This document shows positions 1 to 24,024 of a stretch of DNA of 24,562 nt, one piece after another. Position 1 is the first letter of the stretch. The number at the start of each line of letters is the position of its first letter. This DNA is from a virus. Made by a program: the position numbers and the translations under genes. The DNA is taken from IMG/VR virus record IMGVR_UViG_3300024348_002438, positions 1 through 24,562 of that record, one strand, 5' to 3'. The notes below the pieces were generated by a model. It ran no database searches and had not been told where the DNA came from. It worked only from the letters and a program-made list of their open reading frames with translations.

Positions 1-56
1 GGTAGAGCAGCAGACTTTTAATCTGCGGGTCGATGGTTCGAGCCCATCTGGGGACA
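1..56 (+). tRNA. tRNA-Lys(TTT), 5' end outside the window
   Basis: The anticodon arm is GCAGA / loop CTTTTAA / TCTGC at 10-26, giving anticodon TTT. The T arm is GATGG / TTCGAGC / CCATC at 32-48, followed by the 3' acceptor strand and discriminator A at 56. No CCA is encoded. The 5' acceptor strand and part of the D arm lie before the window. Confidence 0.9.
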
Positions 57-86
57 CACGTGTAAGATAAACTATATAGGAGAAAA

Positions 87-623
87 ATGAAAACAGTAGG
101 AGATAAGTTAGGAACGTTTGCAGTTACTGGTGTAAAGCCAGGAGCCCTAAGCTATGAAGATAGCTCTTTTGAAGTATTAAATCAAGACTCTTTCCCTGGA
201 AAGTGGAAGATTATTGCTTTTTATCCAAAGGATTTTACATTTGTATGCCCAACAGAAATTGTTGCATATGATGCATTAGTAAATGATTTTAATGATAGAG
301 ATGCCATTCTTATGACTGGTTCGGTTGATAATGAATTTTGTAAGATTGCATGGCGTAACGCACATGAAGATCTAAAGAAAACTAATTCATGGTCATTTGC
401 AGACACTGGTCATCAGCTTGCTAACGATCTTGGTGTACATCACCCATCTGGAGTTACATATCGTGCAACATTTATTATTGATCCAGAAAATACAATTCAG
501 CATGTAACTGTAAACAATTTAGATGTAGGTAGAAACCCAGACGAAACTCTTCGTGTACTAGATGCATTACAAACTGGTGAGCTATGTGCATGTAACAGAT
601 CTTTAGGTGGAGAAACTCTATAA
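87..623 (+). CDS. ahpC: alkyl hydroperoxide reductase AhpC (2-Cys peroxiredoxin)
   Basis: Reduces H2O2, alkyl hydroperoxides and peroxynitrite in the cytoplasm. The 178-residue protein carries the peroxiredoxin signature PKDFTFVCPTE with P47, T51 and peroxidatic C54, and active-site R126. The tail reads ELCACN, with C167 and C169 as candidate resolving cysteines. This double-Cys tail is typical of mycobacterial AhpC, which has C61, C174 and C176. The C-terminus is about ten residues shorter than the bacterial protein. AGGAG at 78-82 precedes the ATG. The stop shares a base with the next start (TAATG), so ahpC and ahpD are coupled, as in actinobacteria. An extra C85 is visible. Family assignment is firm; peroxidase activity is inferred. 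Confidence 0.95.
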   Translation: MKTVGDKLGTFAVTGVKPGALSYEDSSFEVLNQDSFPGKWKIIAFYPKDFTFVCPTEIVAYDALVNDFNDRDAILMTGSVDNEFCKIAWRNAHEDLKKTNSWSFADTGHQLANDLGVHHPSGVTYRATFIIDPENTIQHVTVNNLDVGRNPDETLRVLDALQTGELCACNRSLGGETL

Positions 624-1135
624 TGACATGGGTAGACCAGCTTAAGGATTCTCTTCCAGAATATGCTAAAGACATCAAATTAAATCTTGATGCTGTAATC
701 AATAGATCATCTATTGATGTAGAGCATGCTACGTATATTTCAATAGCAGCAGCATTTGCAACAGGCAATGGCAAGCTGCTTGCCTTTATTACTGCTAATG
801 CAAATGATGAAGTTGAAAAAAATGCTGCCCTTACTGCTGGTGCTATCATGGCACAGAATAACGTTTGGTATCCATTTATTGAAATGGCTGATGACGTAAA
901 CTTAAAGGGGCTACCAGCTCAGCTAAGAATGAATGCTATTACTTCTCACGGTGGCACAACCAAAGGTAAGTTTGAAGCTTATTCATTAGCATCGTCTATT
1001 GTTGGTAAATGTCATTTTTGTGTTAAAGCACATTATGAAACATTAAAGCAAGAAGGATACACGGTAGAACAACTACGTGACATAGGAAGAATTGCAGCAA
1101 CAATTAATGCATTAGCAAAGATACTCTCAGCGTGA
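623..1135 (+). CDS. ahpD: alkylhydroperoxidase AhpD (CMD/AhpD family)
   Basis: In mycobacteria AhpD passes electrons from lipoylated dihydrolipoamide acyltransferase and Lpd to AhpC, and has weak peroxidase activity itself. This 170-residue protein has the motif GKCHFCVKAH with C130, C133 and H137, plus E118 upstream; the catalytic numbering matches the M. tuberculosis protein. The N-terminal LPEYAKDIKLNL segment is also typical. It overlaps ahpC by one base and the next gene by four (GTGA), so it belongs to one transcript. No lipoyl or Lpd gene is in the window, so reducing power would have to come from the host. Confidence 0.94.
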   Translation: MTWVDQLKDSLPEYAKDIKLNLDAVINRSSIDVEHATYISIAAAFATGNGKLLAFITANANDEVEKNAALTAGAIMAQNNVWYPFIEMADDVNLKGLPAQLRMNAITSHGGTTKGKFEAYSLASSIVGKCHFCVKAHYETLKQEGYTVEQLRDIGRIAATINALAKILSA

Positions 1136-1602
1136 TAAAAAGGCCAGCCTGGATATTTGACGTAGATGGGACCTTAGTTGATGTGGATCCAATACTTCAC
1201 CACATACTAAATCAAGATAGGTCTAGCGAATCATTTAAGAAAAATTATGATGCTTTTCATAAGGCTTCTATAAGCTGTGATCCACATAAAGATGTAGTTG
1301 ATATGGTCTGGCAGGTATGTAATGATTTAGATATTATTATAGTTACTGCTAGAAAAGAAAAGTATAGGGCTCTAACTTCTAGATGGCTAAAGAATAACGA
1401 TGTCCCACATGATGCCTTATTTATGAGACAAGATGATGATCATAGAGAAGACTATGAAGTCAAAAAAGATATTCTTGAGCACATCGAAGTGTATTGGGAT
1501 GTAAAGCATGCGGTAGATGACAATCCAAGCATTATTAGACTTTGGGAAGAAAATGGGATTACAACTACTAAAATAGGAACATGGGACGGGGTTAAAAGAT
1601 GA
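1132..1602 (+). CDS. HAD-superfamily phosphatase, polynucleotide-kinase 3'-phosphatase-like
   Basis: The 156-residue protein has the HAD motifs: motif I FDVDGT with D10 and D12, motif II T72 in IIIVTAR, a lysine-rich motif III near 111, and motif IV VDDNPS with D129 and D130. Length and layout resemble the stand-alone 3'-phosphatase domain of T4 Pnk. No kinase domain is attached. It may repair 3'-phosphate ends of nucleic acid or dephosphorylate a nucleotide. The start is GTG, overlapping the ahpD stop (GTGA); no good SD is visible, so translation is probably coupled. Confidence 0.8.
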   Translation: MIKRPAWIFDVDGTLVDVDPILHHILNQDRSSESFKKNYDAFHKASISCDPHKDVVDMVWQVCNDLDIIIVTARKEKYRALTSRWLKNNDVPHDALFMRQDDDHREDYEVKKDILEHIEVYWDVKHAVDDNPSIIRLWEENGITTTKIGTWDGVKR

Positions 1603-2144
1603 TAATTGGTCTATCTGGATATGCTAGATCTGGTAAAGATACAGCTGCAGACAGGTTGGTAGAGCAACACATGTTTACGCGGTACTCCTTTGCTGCACCA
1701 ATGAAAGAAGCAATGTACAAGCTTAATCCCATAGTTCATTCAGACAGTATAGGTAATTTTAGATATAAAGATTTAGTAGATACCTGTGGTCTAGATGTTG
1801 CTAAAGAAAATACTCCAGAAATACGCAGGCTCCTACAAGTATTTGGGACAGAAGTTGGAAGAGATATGTTTGGTATTAACTTTTGGGTTGACCTTGCCTT
1901 GAATAGTATTAAAGAAGACAATGCAGTTATAAGTGATGTAAGGTTTAAAAATGAAGCAGACGCAATAAAATCAATTGGTGGGCAAGTCTGGAGAATAAAT
2001 AGGAATGGCGTAGGCCCAGTAACTAACCATTCTTCTGAATTAGATCTAGATAACTACAACTTTGACTACATAATTGATAATGATTACAGTGTGGTAGACT
2101 TAAATAATATAGTGGATATGCTATGGGAGAAAAAGAATGTTTAA
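1599..2144 (+). CDS. deoxynucleoside monophosphate kinase
   Basis: Predicted to phosphorylate dNMPs to dNDPs for phage DNA synthesis (T4 gp1-like family). The Walker A loop is GYARSGKDT at residues 7-15 with K13. The central ISDVRFKNEADAI segment and the later N-H-S-S-E motif are typical of phage dNMP kinases. At 181 residues it is shorter than T4 gp1 (241) but normal for actinophage relatives. It overlaps the upstream gene by four bases (ATGA) and the downstream small gene by eight. Confidence 0.88.
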   Translation: MIIGLSGYARSGKDTAADRLVEQHMFTRYSFAAPMKEAMYKLNPIVHSDSIGNFRYKDLVDTCGLDVAKENTPEIRRLLQVFGTEVGRDMFGINFWVDLALNSIKEDNAVISDVRFKNEADAIKSIGGQVWRINRNGVGPVTNHSSELDLDNYNFDYIIDNDYSVVDLNNIVDMLWEKKNV

Positions 2145-2265
2145 TTCATTGATTTGTAAGATTAAAAGTCATATGCTTGAAAAGGCAGGCTCATGCCCAT
2201 TTACTGGTAAAACTTATAATGTATGTACAAGGTGCAATAAAATGGTTGAGGTAACAAATGAATAA
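2137..2265 (+). CDS. 42-residue zinc-ribbon-like protein
   Basis: Starts at an ATG inside the last codons of the dNMP kinase and overlaps the next gene's start by eight bases. The C-terminal half has C-P-F-T-G-K-x-Y then VCTRC, i.e. an isolated Cys followed by CxxC, as in small phage zinc-ribbon proteins. Function unknown. AGAAAAAGA precedes the ATG as a weak SD, so coupling is likely. Confidence 0.7.
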   Translation: MFNSLICKIKSHMLEKAGSCPFTGKTYNVCTRCNKMVEVTNE

Positions 2266-2833
2266 GGCAATCAATAAAAAAAATGGAATATGGGAATGGC
2301 ATAATGTTTTGGATAACCCCAATGAACTAATTGATGGTATTCAAGATGACAAATGGGAGTATTATACCAATAAGGGTGGCGGGGAAACAATAATTGGAAG
2401 ATCTGTATTTTTACGCAAAGGAGAAGATTTGCATTCAAAAGCGATAAAAGTATTTTTTGACTGTGTGGCAGAATATTCTTCATGCAACGGATTAAATTTT
2501 AATGATGAGAATGTAGGACAAGATTGGCTTTTGATTAGAGAGTACAATACTGGATCTAAAATGTCAGCACATAGCGATGCATATAGCTATGTAAAAAAAG
2601 ATGGCAACCCTGTAAAGCCATCTTTAACCGCTATACTATATATAAATGATGATTATACTGGAGGAGAAATTGATTTTATTCATGATGATTTATGCATAAA
2701 GCCAAAAGCTGGTTCAATGGTAGTTTTCCCAAGTGACAAACAGCACGAGGTGTTAGAAATATTAAGTGGAAATAGATACATGACTCAAACTTATATATAT
2801 GAGCACCCAACTTCTTTTTATGACAAAAACTGA
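2258..2833 (+). CDS. 2OG-Fe(II) oxygenase, prolyl 4-hydroxylase-like (copy 1)
   Basis: The 191-residue protein has the double-stranded beta-helix iron site: HSD with H105 and D107, distal H163 (KQHEV), and R173 for 2-oxoglutarate (GNRYMTQTYI). YINDDYTGGEIDF is the usual strand before the distal His. The substrate cannot be told; related phage proteins may hydroxylate proteins or nucleobases. It is one of four paralogues in this window, and they share little outside the core. It overlaps the upstream zinc protein. Confidence 0.87.
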   Translation: MNKAINKKNGIWEWHNVLDNPNELIDGIQDDKWEYYTNKGGGETIIGRSVFLRKGEDLHSKAIKVFFDCVAEYSSCNGLNFNDENVGQDWLLIREYNTGSKMSAHSDAYSYVKKDGNPVKPSLTAILYINDDYTGGEIDFIHDDLCIKPKAGSMVVFPSDKQHEVLEILSGNRYMTQTYIYEHPTSFYDKN

Positions 2834-2839
2834 TATAAT
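2831..2839 (+). promoter_or_regulatory. extended -10 promoter for a leaderless gene
   Basis: TGATATAAT fits TGnTATAAT and ends six bases before the ATG at 2846, so predicted +1 is the A of the start codon. No -35 match is visible at the normal distance. It overlaps the 3' end of the oxygenase gene. The same arrangement recurs at 7212, 19713 and 20345. Confidence 0.65.
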
Positions 2840-2845
2840 GTATAC

Positions 2846-2971
2846 ATGATAGATAACATACCACCTTGCTTTTATTGTCCACTAGAAAGTAAGTACTCAG
2901 AGCCAGAGCTACTTACTGGTATTGTAATAGATGTGTGTGAAAAACATTTTCATTTAAAGTACATGGGATAA
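2846..2971 (+). CDS. 41-residue CxxC zinc-binding-like protein
   Basis: Has C-F-Y-C near the N-terminus and V-C-E-K-H-F-H near the end, a likely single-zinc fold. No SD lies before the ATG, and the -10 motif six bases upstream predicts a leaderless mRNA. Function unknown. It is followed after three bases by the TTG start of the next gene. Confidence 0.7.
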   Translation: MIDNIPPCFYCPLESKYSEPELLTGIVIDVCEKHFHLKYMG

Positions 2972-2974
2972 ATT

Positions 2975-3202
2975 TTGGCATACAGCAGGTTTTTTGACAG
3001 CGATATATACATATATCCACATGTCGAAGGGTATATTTATTGTGCAGCCTGCCTACTTTCAGAAGAGTCTGAAACAATTAAGGACGACGAACACCTATTT
3101 GTTCACCTTCATGAACATCTTAAGGCGGGTCATGATGTACCAGAGATGCTCTACTATGAAATCATAATGGATGAAGATAGATATACCCCGTTGACAGATT
3201 GA
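2975..3202 (+). CDS. actinophage small protein with CxxC and His cluster
   Basis: The 75-residue protein opens with MAYSRF-x-DSDIYIY, then YCAAC, then several His (FVHLHEH and AGHDVPE). I recognise this as a recurrent small protein of actinobacteriophages, probably a C2H2-like zinc fold, without a known role. The start is TTG at 2975; the conserved N-terminus begins exactly there, which decides the start. Only a weak SD (GGGA) is present. Confidence 0.8.
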   Translation: MAYSRFFDSDIYIYPHVEGYIYCAACLLSEESETIKDDEHLFVHLHEHLKAGHDVPEMLYYEIIMDEDRYTPLTD

Positions 3203-3229
3203 ACAATAAATAGTATTATATAGATATAA

Positions 3230-3241
3230 GGCAATTTTGCC
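3230..3241 (+). repeat. short inverted repeat in the leader of the GPx gene
   Basis: GGCAATTTTGCC is a 5-bp stem around TT, 18 bases before the chosen GPx start and just before an in-frame ATG at 3242 that lacks an SD. It may be a leader hairpin or an operator; no further support. Confidence 0.35.
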
Positions 3242-3259
3242 ATGAAAAAGGAGATTATT

Positions 3260-3727
3260 ATGTCAGTTTATGATTACAGTTTTACAGATAACAATGGCAA
3301 TATTGTTGAGCTGTCAAAATTTAAAGAGAATACTTTATTATTGGTAAACGTTGCAAGCAATTGCGGATTTACTGTTCAGTACGAAGGACTTCAGGCTCTT
3401 AGCAAAAAGCATGAGAATAGAGGGCTTGTAGTGATTGGATTCCCATGCAATCAATTTAATGAACAAGAGCCTGGCACTGATGAAGATATTAAAGATTTTT
3501 GCCAAACAAGGTATGGAGTAGACTTCTTAATCTCTACAAAGATTAATGTTAATGGTGAAGATGCACATCCGCTATTTAAATATTTAGTTTCTAAAGCAGA
3601 GTTTGATGAAGTTCCATGGAATTTTACTAAATTCATTGTTAATGATGCTGAATTTACAGCAATTTCTCCACATGTTACTCCAGAAGAAATGGAAAACGTA
3701 ATAGAGTTAGCCTTACAGAAGAATTAA
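3260..3727 (+). CDS. glutathione peroxidase family protein (likely thioredoxin-type)
   Basis: Reduces peroxides with a cysteine nucleophile. The 155 residues from this start contain C35 in NVASNCGFT, FPCNQF at 61-66 with Q69 just after, and WNF with W120 and N121, completing the Cys-Gln-Trp-Asn tetrad. C81 in DFCQTR sits where thioredoxin-dependent GPx proteins have the resolving Cys. I chose ATG 3260 over ATG 3242 because AAGGAG at 3248-3253 is six bases upstream and the family begins around VYDYSF. It is the third peroxide-reducing enzyme in this stretch, after AhpC and AhpD. Confidence 0.93.
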   Translation: MSVYDYSFTDNNGNIVELSKFKENTLLLVNVASNCGFTVQYEGLQALSKKHENRGLVVIGFPCNQFNEQEPGTDEDIKDFCQTRYGVDFLISTKINVNGEDAHPLFKYLVSKAEFDEVPWNFTKFIVNDAEFTAISPHVTPEEMENVIELALQKN

Positions 3728-3728
3728 A

Positions 3729-4361
3729 TTGTCTAAAAATGTTATTGGATATGAAGCTTTTAGTAACAACCCCCTCTTGCCAGCTAAAAGCTTTATTCCC
3801 GAATGGTACAAGGGCAGCACATCTAAAACTTTAAAAAAATGTGTTCCATTTTTGGATGCCTTTATGTCTGGATATATTATAACTTTGCCAAATGATCTGT
3901 ATGTTAGCTATGACAATAAAACTCCAGAAATAAAGTTAGAGGATGGCACAATATATAAAGGCTCATATAGAGACGCCCAAAGTGTAAACACAATCCCATT
4001 CAATCACTATGATATAGAGTTTGCATGGGATCTTTGTATTGCTATCCATATACCAGCTGGAGCAAGCCTAGTACTTACTCATCCCTTTAACAGATATGAT
4101 TTGCCATTTACTACTTTAAGTGGAATAATAGATGGAGACTTTACAATAGTCCCACATGGTGCAATACCATTTTATATCCAAAAGGGGTTTGAAGGGTTAA
4201 TAAAGGCTGGTACTCCAGTAGCTCAACTAATTCCTTTTAATCGTGATTCATGGAAAGCAGAAGTAGAGGCAGGACTTTTTGAAAATTCAAAAAAGAATCG
4301 CAGATCAATGCCAAGTGACTGGTACAAAAAAAGCTCGTGGAAAAGGAAAAGCTATGATTAG
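3729..4361 (+). CDS. conserved phage protein of unknown function, 210 residues
   Basis: I do not recognise a function with confidence. Visible features: FIPEWYKG near residue 22, CVPFLDAFMSGYIITLP around 38-54, a central beta-rich region (LCIAIHIPAGASLVLTHPFNR), and a basic, aromatic tail. Such proteins occur in large marine phages; the layout may correspond to DUF6065, which I cannot verify. The start is TTG at 3729, directly after the GPx stop with a weak AGAAGAA SD. It lies in the same run as the oxygenases. Confidence 0.75.
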   Translation: MSKNVIGYEAFSNNPLLPAKSFIPEWYKGSTSKTLKKCVPFLDAFMSGYIITLPNDLYVSYDNKTPEIKLEDGTIYKGSYRDAQSVNTIPFNHYDIEFAWDLCIAIHIPAGASLVLTHPFNRYDLPFTTLSGIIDGDFTIVPHGAIPFYIQKGFEGLIKAGTPVAQLIPFNRDSWKAEVEAGLFENSKKNRRSMPSDWYKKSSWKRKSYD

Positions 4362-4382
4362 AAAGAAGAAAGGTATAACTAA

Positions 4383-5048
4383 ATGAATCCGATAAAGATG
4401 TCAGATGAGGTTTGGTATTTTGAAGACGCTCTAGAAAATCCTGACGAATTATTACAATACCCTACTAATTGGGAAAAGACACCAAATCATGACGACATGG
4501 TAACCGCTAGAATTAACACCAAGGAATACCTTGATGTTACAGATGATGCAATATTTAAGTGTTTAGATGTGTGGTACAAGAATCATTTGCATTTGAATGC
4601 AGTAAAATATAAGTTAGCAAAGTCGACCTTTATACACAGCAGGGGCCCAGGCCCAGGCTACGGCCCACATACAGACTTTATGGCACTTCCAGATGGAACT
4701 TATGAGCAGGTTAGCGCCACGATACTTGCGTACCTTCATGACCCAGAAGAATTTGAAGGCGGAGAAATATTTTTCCCAGACTATGATGTTACACTTAGAC
4801 CCAAAAAAGGAAGCGTAATAATATTTGGAAACAAAGTAAGACATGCAGTAACTGATGTTATATCTGGAAGACGATCTATTGCAAGCGTATTCTTAGTTAA
4901 AGAGAAATATTTTTATAAAGAAATGTTTGCTGTTGATCCAAATAATCCAACTCCAGAAGAGCTAAGAAGATTTGAATTATTAGTGCCACAATACGAAATG
5001 AAAAATGGAAACTCAGACGTATCTAAATTTGCTAATGATCTAGGATAA
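4383..5048 (+). CDS. 2OG-Fe(II) oxygenase, prolyl 4-hydroxylase-like (copy 2)
   Basis: The 221-residue protein has an HTD iron motif (H96, D98) in GYGPHTDFM, strand EFEGGEIFFP, distal H154 (KVRHAV) and R163/R164 (SGRRSIASVF). A C-terminal extension of about 50 residues after the core is not seen in copy 1. AAAGG 14 bases upstream is a poor but usable SD. Substrate unknown. Confidence 0.87.
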   Translation: MNPIKMSDEVWYFEDALENPDELLQYPTNWEKTPNHDDMVTARINTKEYLDVTDDAIFKCLDVWYKNHLHLNAVKYKLAKSTFIHSRGPGPGYGPHTDFMALPDGTYEQVSATILAYLHDPEEFEGGEIFFPDYDVTLRPKKGSVIIFGNKVRHAVTDVISGRRSIASVFLVKEKYFYKEMFAVDPNNPTPEELRRFELLVPQYEMKNGNSDVSKFANDLG

Positions 5049-5051
5049 AAA

Positions 5052-5336
5052 ATGATTAATTGGTTAGTCAATAGGATATTCAGGTGGGACACACTGAGGC
5101 ATGCAGTATTTGATGAAGTAATGCTATATCAATCCGTAGATAGATCACTATGGGAACATTCAAAATATGGCCCAATGAATCTTACCTGGTCAGAGGGAGA
5201 CACTTGGTATGGCTGGACCTATAATGAATCTAATAAAAGATATTATTTTGATGATATTGGCAATACATCACTTATGGGTTTATGGGAAGATCAATGGATG
5301 AGGGAAGCCGAAGGCCTAGACGATACTAGGGTATAA
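5052..5336 (+). CDS. hypothetical protein, 94 residues, Trp/Tyr-rich
   Basis: Starts three bases after the oxygenase stop, with AGGAT serving as SD. Aromatic-rich (W at many positions) with an acidic C-terminus. No motif recognised. It belongs to the same run of genes. Confidence 0.7.
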   Translation: MINWLVNRIFRWDTLRHAVFDEVMLYQSVDRSLWEHSKYGPMNLTWSEGDTWYGWTYNESNKRYYFDDIGNTSLMGLWEDQWMREAEGLDDTRV

Positions 5337-5361
5337 TAGTTATCTAAGAGAAAGAAATACT

Positions 5362-5568
5362 ATGACCGTTTCAATGTGCGATAAATGCTCGATCAAGACT
5401 AACAAGGAAGCTTGGGCTAAGTATCCAGAAATGCTTGATTTATGTAAGATGTGTGAGTCATTCCAGATGGCTATAAACAACACTATAGATGAGCAGGCGG
5501 AAAAGCTAGGAATAGTAACCAGCGTAACAAAGAGAATGAGGAAGAAAAACAATGGGCATACTAGATAA
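5362..5568 (+). CDS. 68-residue two-CxxC zinc-ribbon-like protein
   Basis: CDKC at residues 6-9 and CKMC near 28-31 form a four-Cys site, followed by a helix and a basic C-terminus (KRMRKKNNG). Nucleic-acid binding is a plausible inference. TATAAT at 5332-5337 gives a predicted transcript start near 5344, and an A/G-rich SD precedes the ATG. It overlaps the next gene by 17 bases. Confidence 0.75.
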   Translation: MTVSMCDKCSIKTNKEAWAKYPEMLDLCKMCESFQMAINNTIDEQAEKLGIVTSVTKRMRKKNNGHTR

Positions 5569-5659
5569 CCTTGAGGCATACATAGACTTAGATCTATTAG
5601 GCAATCTTGATATGAGAGAAGATATAGATATATTTGAGACCCAGAAGGATTTTGAGTAA
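5552..5659 (+). CDS. 35-residue acidic protein
   Basis: ATG at 5552 lies inside the end of the zinc-ribbon gene, preceded by GAGGAAG. The peptide is acidic (DLDLLGNLDMREDIDIFE). Its stop shares a base with the next ATG (TAATG), so it fits a coupled chain. No family recognised. Confidence 0.6.
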   Translation: MGILDNLEAYIDLDLLGNLDMREDIDIFETQKDFE

Positions 5660-5892
5660 TGTATTGGTCATATATCCTAGCAGTCATTGGAGTCACAGGC
5701 ATATTCTTTGTTGGTCGAAAGACAATATGGGGATGGCATATCCTATTGGTTAATGAGGCTTTGTGGATTACGTATGCAATTATAACAAAACAATATGGGT
5801 TTATATTATCAGCAATAGCATATGCAGCAGTTTATGTTAGGTCTTACATACATTGGTCTAAGGAGCCAGTAAATGAGATCCACCTTGGATAA
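5659..5892 (+). CDS. small membrane protein, about three transmembrane helices
   Basis: In the 77 residues, hydrophobic segments lie at about 3-18, 26-43 and 47-64, with a charged tail. The arrangement recalls small PnuC-like or phage inner-membrane proteins, but no defining motif is seen. The 3' end overlaps the next gene by 20 bases. Confidence 0.7.
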   Translation: MYWSYILAVIGVTGIFFVGRKTIWGWHILLVNEALWITYAIITKQYGFILSAIAYAAVYVRSYIHWSKEPVNEIHLG

Positions 5893-6475
5893 GTTTAAGA
5901 TTGTAGAGACATTCAATTCTTCTGTAATGCATATTTCAAACTGTTTAGAAGATCCAGAAAAAATTGTATCTGGGCTAGAATTTAAAACTTGGAAAGAGAT
6001 GCTTAACAAAGATGGCGTAACTGGACATTTTTGTTTTTTTAAAGAGCCAGACGTAGAGTATACTCAAATACTTGATGCCATGCTTCAGGCAGCAAAAATA
6101 TTTTTATTGAATACTGGCAGGGATATTGCAGATTACGAAAAAAGGTATGATTCTCACAGAGTAGTTAAGTGGGAACAAAAAGGTAGGTATTTAGTTCAAC
6201 ATGTGGACAGATGGTCAACTGGAGGAGATCAAATAACTCCAGACATAAGCCTAAGCATGTATTTAACTGATGACTATGAAGGCGGCGGCTTGAACTTTAG
6301 CTTGCTTGATAAAACAATTAGACCATTAGCTGGAGACATTGTGGCATTTGACCATCACCAGCTGCATGGTACTGAGCCTTATTTAGGCGGAAGAAGAATT
6401 ACAATACAGTTTTATTTATTTAAGAAAGAAAAGGGAGAGACTAATGACAAAGAAGAAGATAAAGCTTCCGCTTAA
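5873..6475 (+). CDS. 2OG-Fe(II) oxygenase, prolyl 4-hydroxylase-like (copy 3)
   Basis: The 200-residue protein has an HVD iron motif (H110, D112), strand DDYEGGGLNF, distal H165 in QLHGTEP, and R174/R175 (GGRRITIQFYL). The H-G-x-E-P then G-R-R spacing matches copy 4, so these two are closer to each other than to copies 1 and 2. The C-terminus is lysine/glutamate-rich. It starts within the membrane-protein gene. Confidence 0.87.
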   Translation: MRSTLDKFKIVETFNSSVMHISNCLEDPEKIVSGLEFKTWKEMLNKDGVTGHFCFFKEPDVEYTQILDAMLQAAKIFLLNTGRDIADYEKRYDSHRVVKWEQKGRYLVQHVDRWSTGGDQITPDISLSMYLTDDYEGGGLNFSLLDKTIRPLAGDIVAFDHHQLHGTEPYLGGRRITIQFYLFKKEKGETNDKEEDKASA

Positions 6476-6545
6476 ATGGTGGAAGAATCCAATTACATAC
6501 GTAAAGTTTCATAGATCAATGAAGAAGCTAAAAAAGGCTCTATAA
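6444..6545 (+). CDS. 33-residue highly basic peptide
   Basis: GGGAGAG lies just upstream of the ATG. The ORF overlaps the end of oxygenase copy 3 by 32 bases. Lysine-rich with a WW pair and an amphipathic C-terminus. It stops five bases before tRNA-Arg. No family recognised. Confidence 0.55.
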   Translation: MTKKKIKLPLKWWKNPITYVKFHRSMKKLKKAL

Positions 6546-6550
6546 GCCTT

Positions 6551-6621
6551 TTCAGGTTCCTATAATGGTCGTAGAGCGGTTTCCGAAACCGACAATGAAG
6601 GTCCGATTCCTTCACCTGAAG
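6551..6621 (+). tRNA. tRNA-Arg(CCG), structurally atypical
   Basis: The acceptor strand 6551-6557 pairs perfectly with 6614-6620. The anticodon loop TTCCGAA at 6581-6587 gives CCG, decoding CGG. The T stem is GAAGG/CCTTC with loop TCCGATT, where position 55 is C rather than the near-universal T. The anticodon stem has a G-A mismatch at its base and the D stem begins C10-G25. 71 bases, no encoded CCA. Confidence 0.82.
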
Positions 6622-6622
6622 C

Positions 6623-6757
6623 ATGAGTAAGCACTGGGAGGATAAGTCCCAATGGATCACACACTGTCCCATATGCTTTTGTGCGGTCACACACCAGCTA
6701 TATGACTTTCATATGCAATATCATGAAAACCAGGCGGGCAAAGAGGCTATTGACTAG
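6623..6757 (+). CDS. 44-residue Cys/His-rich protein
   Basis: The ATG lies two bases after tRNA-Arg. The peptide has CPICFC plus H24, H30 and H34, a possible C2H2-type zinc site. No SD is visible since the tRNA occupies that space, so expression is uncertain. The end of this ORF holds the -35 of the next promoter. Confidence 0.5.
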   Translation: MSKHWEDKSQWITHCPICFCAVTHQLYDFHMQYHENQAGKEAID

Positions 6758-6778
6758 CCCACCAACATATAGTACAAT
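6750..6778 (+). promoter_or_regulatory. sigma-70-like promoter for a leaderless gene
   Basis: TTGACT (6750-6755), a 17-base spacer, TACAAT (6773-6778), then six bases to the ATG at 6785. Predicted +1 is the start codon itself. Confidence 0.75.
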
Positions 6779-6784
6779 AAATAT

Positions 6785-6997
6785 ATGAAATCATCTAGAG
6801 ACAAGTCAATGCTTAATACATCAAAGGCGAAGCCTTCTGGCGTTGATCTTCCTAAAGAAGCTATGGATATACTAAAAAGATTGCAGGCTGCAAAGGTTTA
6901 CGGCAGTAAAAGAAAGTACAACAAAGTATTACAAGATCTTGCAGATTCATATCCTGAGATGGCATCAGATATATTTAAGCTAAAGGTATGGGAGTAA
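6785..6997 (+). CDS. hypothetical protein, 70 residues, helical and basic
   Basis: Lysine-rich N-terminus, then a predicted helical region (PKEAMDILKRLQAAK). No SD; a good promoter predicts a leaderless transcript. The next gene starts one base after the stop. No family recognised. Confidence 0.7.
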   Translation: MKSSRDKSMLNTSKAKPSGVDLPKEAMDILKRLQAAKVYGSKRKYNKVLQDLADSYPEMASDIFKLKVWE

Positions 6998-6998
6998 A

Positions 6999-7127
6999 AT
7001 GAGCCTAGATGAGATTACACTAAGAGAAGAGATTGCAAGGGCTATAGAGGCCATAGAGATCGAAGAGTCAGTAACCAATGCCATAGGCATGCGTATGCTG
7101 GCTGCTAAGATAGCTAGAAATAACTAA
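6999..7127 (+). CDS. 42-residue helical protein
   Basis: GGGAG in the end of the upstream gene serves as SD. The peptide is a charged amphipathic helix (EEIARAIEAIEIEESV) with a short basic tail. Second gene of a two-gene unit. Confidence 0.6.
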   Translation: MSLDEITLREEIARAIEAIEIEESVTNAIGMRMLAAKIARNN

Positions 7128-7131
7128 TATA

Positions 7132-7173
7132 GCCTATATAGGCCCCATTTAGTGAAGCGAAAAAGTGAAGCGG
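7132..7173 (+). repeat. palindrome and direct repeats after the two-gene unit
   Basis: GCCTATATAGGC (7132-7143) is a perfect palindrome. It is followed by two copies of AGTGAAGCG (starting 7151 and 7164) in an A-rich context. The role is unknown: transcription stop or protein site. Confidence 0.4.
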
Positions 7174-7191
7174 AAAATGAGAGAGGGTTTA

Positions 7192-7220
7192 GTCAACTAC
7201 GTTGACATAAATGCTATAAT
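7192..7220 (+). promoter_or_regulatory. promoter with overlapping inverted-repeat operator
   Basis: TGCTATAAT (extended -10) at 7212-7220 ends six bases before ATG 7227, predicting a leaderless mRNA. GTCAAC-TAC-GTTGAC at 7192-7206 is an inverted repeat centred about 28 bases before that start, where the -35 would be, so it may be a repressor or activator site. A second TATAAT at 7223-7228 overlaps the ATG and lies 15 bases after TTGACA; if that one is used, translation would begin further in. Confidence 0.6.
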
Positions 7221-7226
7221 ACTATA

Positions 7227-7553
7227 ATGGATAAACTTAACTCATCATATGGCAAGTACATGAAAAAGGTAATGATAGCAGACTTGATCAAAGAGTCTGA
7301 GATTCCAGTACCTGGAGATCCAGAGGATGCTGGGATAGAGAACGTAATAGACCTATCTCCTATTGGTATAGCCACATACGAGCATAACCCTGAACATGAC
7401 GTTTACATCGTCACACTTAAGCTCGAAAAGGGCGGGGAATCAATACAATACGTATTAGACCCCCAAGGACTAAAGGATCTAATAGAGTTAGGCAAGAAGT
7501 ATTTCTATCAAGAGATGGAATCTAATACCTTTGATATGAGATCAATACTCTAA
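7227..7553 (+). CDS. hypothetical protein, 108 residues
   Basis: A beta-rich central part (YIVTLKLEKGGESIQYVLDP) and acidic N-terminal third. The second methionine at 7260 (MKKVMIADL) is an alternative start. Last plus-strand gene before the non-coding junction. No family recognised. Confidence 0.7.
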   Translation: MDKLNSSYGKYMKKVMIADLIKESEIPVPGDPEDAGIENVIDLSPIGIATYEHNPEHDVYIVTLKLEKGGESIQYVLDPQGLKDLIELGKKYFYQEMESNTFDMRSIL

Positions 7554-8054
7554 TAGGCACAGTATAGACCAAGGATAAGCTGTAGAAAATTACAGCAAAT
7601 GGTCTCTAACTCCTATATCCCCCTCCCGTTTTCCTTGTCTCATATAGCCCTTAGAAGGCTTATATAGTGGAGTAAAGTGGAGCATAGTGGAGAATATATA
7701 CTATAGATTCTATATCATATACTATAGTTATATCTATTTAAACAATACTATGTAATTGAGCATATCATAATCATAACCGTAATGTCAATAGGGGCATATG
7801 GACTTATATGAGACATAGCGCATATTCCAGCGATATTGTCAATAGCCCCGTAAATGGCATATTTGGCCCACATTGTCAACATAATTTGTATAACAATTGT
7901 ATATAAATTCTGACAGATTCTGGGTATATTATGCCTAATTCATTATATGTTTTATTAGATAATATATTCATTTTATTATATTCTCCTGAATATTCCAGGG
8001 ATTTTTTTAGCTTGGTCGTAAACGAATAATTTTGCCCACATGCCCATACATAAA
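7554..8054. other. AT-rich non-coding junction
   Basis: No plausible gene in about 500 bases between plus-strand genes ending here and minus-strand genes ending beyond. It contains the AGTGGAG repeat, three TGTCAA hexamers (7783, 7837, 7874), many TATA-rich steps and a CCTGAATATTCCAGG dyad near 7992. A replication or packaging role is possible but not shown. Confidence 0.6.
7666..7692 (+). repeat. AGTGGAG repeated three times with exact 10-bp period
   Basis: Copies begin at 7666, 7676 and 7686, each AGTGGAG plus three variable bases, placing them on one face of the helix. This suggests cooperative protein binding (iteron-like). Confidence 0.6.
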
Positions 8055-12836: not shown

Positions 12837-12868
12837 AAATTTTGTCCCTAAGTACTGCGGGAATTTTG

Positions 12869-12942
12869 CGATCCATAACGGACTTGAACCGTCGGCCTCT
12901 ACCGTGACAGGGTAGCGCTCTAACCAACTGAGCTAATGGACC
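12869..12942 (-). tRNA. tRNA-Asp(GTC)
   Basis: Complete 74-base cloverleaf: acceptor GGTCCAT/ATGGATC, anticodon stem CTACC/GGTAG with loop CTGTCAC giving GTC, T arm GACGG/TTCAAGT/CCGTT, discriminator G. No encoded CCA. Follows the TIGR03299-type gene in the same direction. Confidence 0.95.
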
Positions 12943-12989: not shown

Positions 12990-13997
12990 TTAAAACGCAG
13001 AAATTAATTTCTTAATTTTATTTTTTTCTGCGGTGAGAATTGGGTCAAACCCTGATGCACCAGCCATAAGTGTTTCAGAATTTCCGCGACCTGAACGATA
13101 GTAGTCAAGGCGTTCAGTTAGTGCATTGAATGCACCCCACTTAGTTCCCTTGATGTTAGCGTTAGTTGGTGAGTTGTGATAAAGATTGTCAAGAAGCACA
13201 ACCTTATTCTCCCACTTAGTTAGCGCAACCTTAGCAGAATCTTTATCTGGCTTAGGATAAATTGTCTGAATCAACTTAGAAAATTCAGCATCAGTAATTG
13301 ATTGAGAATAAAGAGCCTGAGCCTCTTTCTCAAATTCATCAAAGTATCCAAGAGCAAGACCAAGAGTCTCGCGGGCTACCTGAATGCGACCTTCAACAGA
13401 TTGCGTGTGACGAATCTTGAAAGATTGCTTAGCATTCTTCATTGCTAGGTTTAGTGTATTTTGGCAAACTACACGAACAGGAGTAACCGCAGCCTGAACA
13501 GCAACAGACCCGTCATGAGATGTCCATACGATTAGATATAACTTGGTTGCATCATTTGCGCCTTGTGGGTCAAGCACCATTGTGCGAGGAATATCCACAG
13601 TACCGAAAACAACCTTACCGCTACGAAGCGAGCCAGCAGATTCCCAACGGCAATCGGCATTGGCATCATGAATTGCATCAGCGAATGCAAACAATTCTTC
13701 ATTCTGCACAGGCTTGTAACGCTTACCAACAGTAGCAAGAACATCAGTTCCGCTATTGAATGGGTTGTCACGAATAACTAATTGAGCATTAGATACATCA
13801 TTCCATGTATCTGAGATATGGTCGGTCAATGGAGATAGACGGACATTCCAGTTAGATAGTTTTGCCTCATCTAACATCATTTGAGTAGTAACATCTTCAT
13901 CTTGTGTGAAGATACGATTAGCAAGATTATGCCATGCAGGTGCGCCACGCAATGCAAAAGCAACTTCGCCGTTTTCAGTTTCTAGATTATGAGCCAT
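12990..13997 (-). CDS. phage/plasmid-like protein, DUF932 / TIGR03299 family
   Basis: 335 residues, full length for the family. The typical opening appears as FALRGAPAWHNLANRI, followed by the central VRVVCQNTLNLAM motif and the distal KGTKWGAFNALTERLDYYR block. The family is widespread in actinophages and plasmids and has no settled biochemical role. AACGAAAGG leader before ATG 13997. It is the largest gene of the minus block and is the sole coding gene of its promoter. Confidence 0.92.
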   Translation of the reverse strand: MAHNLETENGEVAFALRGAPAWHNLANRIFTQDEDVTTQMMLDEAKLSNWNVRLSPLTDHISDTWNDVSNAQLVIRDNPFNSGTDVLATVGKRYKPVQNEELFAFADAIHDANADCRWESAGSLRSGKVVFGTVDIPRTMVLDPQGANDATKLYLIVWTSHDGSVAVQAAVTPVRVVCQNTLNLAMKNAKQSFKIRHTQSVEGRIQVARETLGLALGYFDEFEKEAQALYSQSITDAEFSKLIQTIYPKPDKDSAKVALTKWENKVVLLDNLYHNSPTNANIKGTKWGAFNALTERLDYYRSGRGNSETLMAGASGFDPILTAEKNKIKKLISAF

Positions 13998-20481: not shown

Positions 20482-20556
20482 GGGGATATAGCTTAATCTG
20501 GTTAAAGCACTTGTCTTATATACAATAGATTCTGGGTTCAAATCCCAGTATCCCTA
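20482..20556 (+). tRNA. tRNA-Ile(TAT), reads AUA
   Basis: The acceptor GGGGATA pairs with TATCCCT (one G-T). D stem GCTT/AAGC, anticodon loop CTTATAT giving TAT, T arm CTGGG/TTCAAAT/CCCAG, discriminator A. The anticodon stem has one C-T mismatch at its base. 75 bases, no CCA. Most bacteria read AUA with a lysidine-modified CAU tRNA, so a TAT anticodon is notable. Confidence 0.85.
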
Positions 20557-20570
20557 CAATGGAGTTATAT

Positions 20571-21650: not shown

Positions 21651-22499
21651 TTAGTGTTCTTTAAATTCTCCCATAAATGCATCAGAAAGTTTTTCGCCTT
21701 CTAATCCAGAAGCCTGATATTTTTTAATCAGCTCTCTTGTAAATTGTGGGTTTTCTTTTAAAGGTTGCATCCACTTACCAATAAATTGCATAAATGTAAT
21801 GTCGTCTTTATCTTTAATCTGCTCATAATATTCTGGAGTCTTGTAGTTATAAAATGTTCCAGGATTATCTTCTGCTTTTAGCACAAAGTTTGAGAACGCA
21901 TATCTTCTTCCAGAAGAAACTGGCTCAACTCCATGTGCATGTGTGTTAAAAGCTCCATGAATAACAAGGTCGCCTCTTTCTGGCTTTATTCTTAACTGAT
22001 CTTCTTGCTTAACTGCATCTTGTCTAATTCCGTCTTTGTCTATGTTTACATAGAATATTTCTCCGCCTTCAAAATCGCCAAAGTATGCTACTAGGCCAAA
22101 ATCAAGCTCGCAGCAAGTCTTCCATACGTCAACTTGTGACAGTCTGTGGCACTCGCCTTTTCCAGGAGAGTCTGAGTGAGTAAACATTCCCTCATTCATT
22201 TCTGGAGTGATAATTAATACGTTTCCTTGTGGGTGCATGACATACTCTGGATACAAAAGCTCGCTTGCTTTTTCCCAAAGCGGGTGAATAGATTGAAGAG
22301 GTGGGCTTATTTTATTAGAGTACCAGCTTATAAGCGTATCCATGTATTCTTGATCACATTTGTAGTCTTTAAGTTCTTCTTCAACCGTCTTACACTCTTC
22401 GTCAGTAAAAAATCCTTTAAATATAAAAACTCCGCTTTGGGTGCCATATTCATCTAAAAAGAATGAAGCCTTGATGCAATCTTCTCTATCGTAGAACAT
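21651..22499 (-). CDS. 2OG-Fe(II) oxygenase, prolyl 4-hydroxylase-like (copy 4)
   Basis: The largest of the four at 282 residues. Iron ligands H108 and D110 (FTHSDSPGKG) and H189 (THAHGVEP), with R198/R199 (SGRRYAFSNF). A 90-residue N-terminal part (FKGFFTDEECKTVEEELKDY) resembles P4H N-terminal regions. The DFEGGEIFY strand precedes the distal His. Alone among the four it is on the minus strand, in an operon with a Cys/His small protein. Confidence 0.88.
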   Translation of the reverse strand: MFYDREDCIKASFFLDEYGTQSGVFIFKGFFTDEECKTVEEELKDYKCDQEYMDTLISWYSNKISPPLQSIHPLWEKASELLYPEYVMHPQGNVLIITPEMNEGMFTHSDSPGKGECHRLSQVDVWKTCCELDFGLVAYFGDFEGGEIFYVNIDKDGIRQDAVKQEDQLRIKPERGDLVIHGAFNTHAHGVEPVSSGRRYAFSNFVLKAEDNPGTFYNYKTPEYYEQIKDKDDITFMQFIGKWMQPLKENPQFTRELIKKYQASGLEGEKLSDAFMGEFKEH

Positions 22500-23442: not shown

Positions 23443-23991
23443 CTAATTTGTCGGGAACTTTAAATAAAATTCCTTTGCTCTTGGGGTTAAACCCTTCCAA
23501 GCTGTCCAATTTTCTCCGCCATTGGACATATGGTACGCTATCTCTGCATTTATAGTTGGGTCAAATAATAGTACGTTTGACTTTAAATTAAATTTTTCTT
23601 TACGATCTGTGCCGAGTGAACCCAACATATTGATCTGAAAAATTCCGTAAGAACTGTCTCCAGTATTCCTGTTACCATTGTATGCCATTGGTCGTCCGTT
23701 GGACTCCCTCTTGGCAATGGCCCAAGCCGTTTTAAGGGCTTTTCCTTCAAAGCCTACTGCTGCCAGTAGTTCTTTCAGTTCTGTGTCTGAAAGCATTTCT
23801 GAAGGCTTATAAACAGTATTGCTGTACTTCTCTAAGGTTTCTTTCTTAAGTTGTACTTCTGTCTTTGGTTTTACTATTAGAGCTTGAGCGGCTGGTGCAC
23901 CAACTGTATTCGAAAACAAAAACATTACTGTAATTGCAATCGCAGCATATTGATGAACAATATCGCTTAAACTTTTCTTTATATTCTCCAT
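23443..23991 (-). CDS. membrane-anchored lytic transglycosylase (SLT/lysozyme-like)
   Basis: 182 residues from this start. An N-terminal basic segment and a hydrophobic helix (YAAIAITVMFLFSNTVGAPAAQAL) give a signal or anchor. The catalytic part begins WAIAKRESNG with the Glu, followed by GDSSYGIFQINM and the NAEIAYHMSNGG helix: the SLT/lysozyme fold used by actinobacterial Rpf-like and phage cell-wall hydrolases. Likely cuts peptidoglycan for lysis or entry. ATG 23991 sits eight bases after GGAGG and is preferred over ATG 23997. Confidence 0.85.
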   Translation of the reverse strand: MENIKKSLSDIVHQYAAIAITVMFLFSNTVGAPAAQALIVKPKTEVQLKKETLEKYSNTVYKPSEMLSDTELKELLAAVGFEGKALKTAWAIAKRESNGRPMAYNGNRNTGDSSYGIFQINMLGSLGTDRKEKFNLKSNVLLFDPTINAEIAYHMSNGGENWTAWKGLTPRAKEFYLKFPTN

Positions 23992-24024
23992 TGGCATTTC
24001 CTCCTTTAGAGATAGCGAGATATA

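Follow-up and report, generated by a model that had tools for sequence, protein, structure and literature searches.

The window (the whole stretch of DNA analysed, a virus contig fragment of 24,562 bases) encodes a glutathione peroxidase (GPx)-family protein close to an ahpC-ahpD pair, which raises the questions of what such an enzyme does in a phage, what reduces it, and whether its proximity to ahpCD reflects a joint role in infection. From our analyses, we consider it probable that the gene is an accessory phage cassette with its own promoter, encoding a GPx-type peroxidase that depends on thioredoxin and lowers peroxide during infection; the reductant, substrate, expression and benefit in this reading are predicted. 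The relevant features, all on the plus strand, are:

87..623, plus strand: AhpC, a 2-Cys peroxiredoxin with FVCPTE and a C-terminal CxC (Pfam AhpC-TSA, 6.6e-22)
623..1135, plus strand: AhpD, with CxxC and its Glu and His neighbours, overlapping the ahpC stop (Pfam CMD, 8.9e-9)
2975..3202, plus strand: 75-aa open reading frame with a TTG start, immediately before GPx in most GPx-bearing relatives (gene-order table)
3191..3219, plus strand: promoter-like element TTGACA-17-TATTAT serving GPx (11/12 match; conserved in relatives)
3230..3241, plus strand: small leader hairpin GGCA-ATTT-TGCC between promoter and Shine-Dalgarno sequence (RNAalifold consensus)
3248..3253, plus strand: Shine-Dalgarno sequence AAGGAG for the start at 3260 (from sequence; a purine-rich element is kept in relatives)
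3260..3727, plus strand: GPx-family thiol peroxidase, 155 aa (Pfam GSHPx, alignment, AlphaFold/Foldseek)
3729..4361, plus strand: PHROG 7084 protein of unknown function, its start adjoining the GPx stop

The product of 3260-3727 matched the Pfam GSHPx profile (PF00255) with E=1.7e-41 and 140.6 bits, over the curated cut-off of 27, as well as PHROG 5295 (E=3e-46) and 41 distinct PDB sequences; NCBIfam matches were under their equivalog cut-offs. An in-frame ATG at 3242 is an alternative start of this frame, which stops at 3727, and 3260 was chosen because it has AAGGAG a short way upstream and gives a protein beginning with MSVYDYS, as in relatives. The AlphaFold model (pLDDT 88.8) has the GPx fold, with poplar GPX5 as its top Foldseek match (E=3.8e-18, TM 0.89).

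The preliminary description of this locus had reported an intact GPx tetrad of C35, Q69, W120 and N121. Its numbering, counted from 3260, is right, and an alignment of 14 viral homologues shows no variation at the four positions; a complete tetrad is present in 47 of the 48 phage rows, the remaining row being without the W and N columns. C35 is encoded by TGC in the window and is a cysteine in all rows compared, and a classical glutathione-dependent selenoprotein was rejected on the absence of selenocysteine at this codon. Overlooked at the time was the resolving cysteine, C81, which sits in the helix after FPCNQF and is found without exception in the 48 phage rows and the 78 cellular rows compared. 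Since it is invariant in the cellular rows too, C81 marks the ordinary bacterial type of GPx and is no phage speciality. The third cysteine is C63. Homologues were searched for with the patterns FPCNQF and WNF(T/E)KF, so that the conservation of C63, W120 and N121 was partly selected for; C35, Q69 and C81 lie outside these patterns. Judged from its sequence, the gene most likely encodes a thioredoxin-type peroxidase, C35 and C81 most likely making the protein a 2-Cys GPx of this type rather than a glutathione enzyme.

In fold, tetrad and pair of peroxidatic and resolving cysteines, the phage GPx resembles the thioredoxin-dependent Cys-GPx enzymes known from poplar (GPX5) and yeast (Gpx3/Orp1/HYR1). 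It differs from poplar GPX5 in being phage-encoded, with about 40% identity in the structural alignment and an activity that is predicted. C35/C81 matches Cys36/Cys82, the peroxidatic/resolving pair of a fungal thioredoxin-dependent GPx, fission yeast Gpx1 (PMC9001804). From their spacing, C35/C63/C81 would also correspond to cysteines C38/C66/C84 of actinobacterial mycothiol peroxidase (C. glutamicum Mpx, S. olindensis CosP), which accepts thioredoxin and thioredoxin reductase (PMC9241694). Among phages, Stenotrophomonas phage TS-12 (MW302330), which has a different host, carries an annotated GPx-like protein of 43.7% identity.

A candidate source of reducing power was found in a twin contig (L008, 23,072 bases), which is identical to the window over 1-7801, reaches further left and, some 6.7 kb ahead of ahpC, encodes a thioredoxin (L008:2699-3001). 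Because of this contig, the phage of the window very probably has a thioredoxin of its own. Among 24 long relatives, thioredoxin (PF00085) was detected by profile match in 22 and glutaredoxin (PF00462) over its cut-off in two, and a full Pyr_redox_2 of the thioredoxin reductase type was absent. The reductant of GPx leans to thioredoxin, because C81 is invariant, thioredoxin is widespread in these relatives and a glutaredoxin- or mycoredoxin-like gene is almost absent. Glutathione was rejected as the leading candidate for the reductant, since C81 is present and phage glutaredoxin is nearly missing.

The phage thioredoxin, whose gene lies outside the window, has another likely client, because ribonucleotide reductase matches, many of them weak, occurred in all 19 long relatives tested. 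It might therefore mainly serve that enzyme, with the same peroxidase being reduced by host mycothiol and mycoredoxin in the style of Corynebacterium or Streptomyces. Actinobacterial GPx proteins with the same three-cysteine layout do accept Mrx1/MSH/Mtr as well as Trx/TrxR (PMC9241694), and the WhiB protein encoded in a 113-kb relative suggests an actinobacterial host, indirectly so for the phage of the window, WhiB having been used as an indicator of such hosts before (PMC6802176). The likely host group is shared with mycothiol peroxidase, but the phage GPx lies outside the actinobacterial rows in the tree: the clustered ones (L248, L267, L275) fall among the cellular rows, outside the phage group. 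As glutaredoxin-like phage genes are also few, we regard reduction by mycothiol as unlikely.

In the favoured, thioredoxin-dependent reaction, C35, activated by Q69, W120 and N121, would attack H2O2 or an organic hydroperoxide, and the sulfenic acid formed on C35 would condense with C81. The resulting C35-C81 disulfide would be reduced by the phage's own thioredoxin, which host thioredoxin reductase would recharge, since no phage thioredoxin reductase was found in the long relatives. With GPx transcribed from its private promoter, peroxide could be kept low in infection of a probably actinobacterial, freshwater host via GPx and, separately, via AhpC with AhpD as electron donor. Direct support within this scheme concerns the fold family, the residues and their conservation, selection on the gene, conservation of the promoter and the phage thioredoxin in the twin contig.

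The protein could also be a redox relay or sensor like yeast Orp1, passing oxidation to a phage or host regulator, or a specific protector of iron enzymes, for example the 2OG-Fe(II) oxygenases encoded nearby. Among the PDB sequences that match GPx, yeast HYR1/Orp1 ranks second, and the window encodes four 2OG-FeII_Oxy_3 (PF13640) matches, at 2258-2833, 4383-5048 and 5873-6475 on the plus strand, all over the Pfam cut-off, and at 21651-22499 on the minus strand, just below it; others are found in the 113-kb relative (L301). Scavenging is nevertheless the default role of the GPx family, and a candidate partner was not identified, which makes a relay or protective role quite improbable beside peroxide removal.

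The TTGACA-17-TATTAT element was the top promoter-like match within positions 1-6800 of the window, and in 11 of 11 aligned relatives its -35 was invariant and its -10 nearly so. Promoter-like matches across the whole region were no more numerous than in shuffles, and the weight of the element therefore rests on its conservation. RNAalifold indicated a two-sided G-C to A-U swap in the leader hairpin, at one pair in 4 of 11 sequences and at another in 1 of 11. Because of the conserved predicted promoter and the leader hairpin, the GPx gene seems to be expressed autonomously, in the manner of phage 'morons'. Directly behind GPx, the search gave no terminator-like site, so co-transcription with 3729-4361 may occur.

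The dN/dS ratio of GPx was 0.11-0.16 (about 0.12) against relatives of 68-91% identity, with synonymous sites near saturation in more distant pairs, and by this measure the gene is under purifying selection. The top cellular match showed 51% identity, and 46 of the 48 phage rows clustered in a quick tree whose basal support was weak (64); good support was obtained for the group of 19 to which the window GPx belongs. A recent capture of GPx from the host was rejected on the low cellular identity and the clustering of the phage rows, for all the weakness at the base, and these same observations indicate that GPx has probably been moving among phages for a long time. The gene might still be a neutral, host-derived passenger with no selected role in infection, and its patchy occurrence (canonical GPx in 5 of 25 records picked via a neighbouring gene) would fit. 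The low dN/dS, the conserved promoter and leader, and the long-standing phage lineage all argue against such a passenger, to which we give hardly any credence.

The similarity of the window to described freshwater phages points to a freshwater habitat. Its GPx, AhpC and AhpD, together with the thioredoxin of the twin contig, were compared with the ROS-defence set of those phages. Kavagutti et al. (2019) reported that glutathione peroxidases, thioredoxins and further ROS genes occur in freshwater phages, in many cases actinophages, and proposed that the infected host is protected from environmental ROS and from the oxidative bursts of grazers (PMC6802176). Later surveys include GPx among virus-borne genes (PMC12724203, PMC11053968). 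The general idea of GPx and thioredoxin as a phage ROS defence is thus already published (PMC6802176), whereas the main text of that study is silent on alkyl hydroperoxide reductase and on the combination of modules. Within our partial coverage of the literature, no paper on phage ahpCD in this clade was found. Our analysis adds the assignment to the thioredoxin type, a promoter and leader specific to the gene, and evidence that GPx and AhpCD are separable modules.

Both ahp genes are genuine, and the gap from the end of ahpD to the start of GPx is 2.1 kb, in agreement with the 2 kb given previously. The pair resembles mycobacterial AhpC/AhpD in its CxC and CxxC motifs and in its best PDB matches, which are M. 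tuberculosis AhpC (1.6e-44) and M. tuberculosis AhpD (5.9e-24). The phage AhpD has CHFC in place of the CSHC of M. tuberculosis and lacks His132, but it retains the Glu, both cysteines and the His that follows. AhpD acts chiefly as electron donor to AhpC. GPx therefore represents a second intact peroxidase system in the window, and calling it a third peroxide-reducing enzyme, as the preliminary description did, was something of an overcount.

Relatives of AhpC were found in at least about 600 stretches, relatives of AhpD likewise in at least about 600, and 302 GPx relatives with alignment in viral contigs. Among the matches listed, GPx lay within 5 kb in 12 of 93 loci that had been selected by AhpC/AhpD and extended at least 5 kb downstream, some contigs being counted twice. 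Such counts are conditioned on one gene of the pair, hence two samples were drawn via neighbouring genes. When records with sufficient flank were selected through the 94-aa gene at 5052-5336, 4 had both modules, 6 had ahpCD only, 3 had GPx only and 4 had neither (odds ratio 0.9, p=1); selection by the gene at 12990-13997 gave 3 with both, 5 with AhpC only, 2 with GPx only and 15 with neither (odds ratio 4.5, p=0.28). The latter gene, on the minus strand, matches PHROG 1221 of unknown function, is 91-100% identical in the best 80 contigs and is usable as a clade marker. Pooled, the two samples showed no significant association of GPx with ahpCD (Fisher p=0.30), and as rough samples of related records, with a few contigs in both and many fragments, they are compatible with modest or no coupling. 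A terminase-based sample consisted mostly of short contigs and was too weak for base rates.

Within the same gene neighbourhood, GPx occurs without ahpCD (L407, L411, L152, L150, L162, L176) and ahpCD without GPx (L405, L409, L412, L414, L419, L420). The order dNMP kinase - ORF2975 - GPx - ORF5052 was seen with and without ahpCD, and the order ahpCD - ORF5052 without GPx. The two modules are present together in several relatives, roughly as often as they are apart, so that the lack of co-occurrence which would have refuted the earlier reading was not observed, but tight coupling was rejected for want of support in the neighbour-selected samples. Because the modules are also found singly and show no significant association, their pairing does not support the earlier proposal that two peroxidase systems in one phage mark oxidative stress as a real barrier in this infection. 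Their supposed independence is likewise doubtful, as the GPx very likely uses the phage's own thioredoxin. GPx and ahpCD seem to be peroxidase cassettes that are exchanged independently of each other, against the background of a thioredoxin that is nearly always present. Closely related phages that have both peroxidases, a single one or none at one genome place form natural sets, in which the question of why antioxidant enzymes occur in phages can be approached by concrete comparison.

A diverged AhpC/TSA protein was seen only where canonical GPx is lacking, in six records (G002, G004-G007, G063); in G002 and G004 it lies about 5 kb after thioredoxin, near the place of GPx in G011 and G012. 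It is suggestive only, several of the records being close relatives, that this protein takes a GPx-like place where canonical GPx is missing. Tentatively, a clade of freshwater phages of about 110 kb might have a near-universal thioredoxin as a hub for interchangeable peroxidase cassettes, namely GPx, AhpCD, diverged AhpC/TSA and a 311-aa GPx-like form. If so, such a mix-and-match phage redox module would be a new variant of the known phage ROS-defence genes.

Diverged AhpC/TSA proteins of 159-165 aa with the motif SD(M/T)CS(V/I)E occur at L307:12401-12880, near 18777 in L315, and in L319, all relatives without canonical GPx. Longer GPx-like frames of 271-311 aa (L027:16419-17303, G044, G048, G034, G019) are matched by the GSHPx profile in part only; in L027, the N-terminal part is followed by a long stretch before NFEKYLV is reached. 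The 113-kb relative encodes a luciferase-like monooxygenase (PF00296; L301:7447-8241) between thioredoxin and ahpCD. Elsewhere in the window, tRNA genes are located at 6551-6622 (Arg, ccg), 12868-12942 (Asp, gtc) and 20482-20557 (Ile, tat). The product of 23443-23997 on the minus strand has an SLT_3 lysozyme-like domain after an apparent N-terminal hydrophobic segment, and is likely an endolysin or exported muralytic enzyme.
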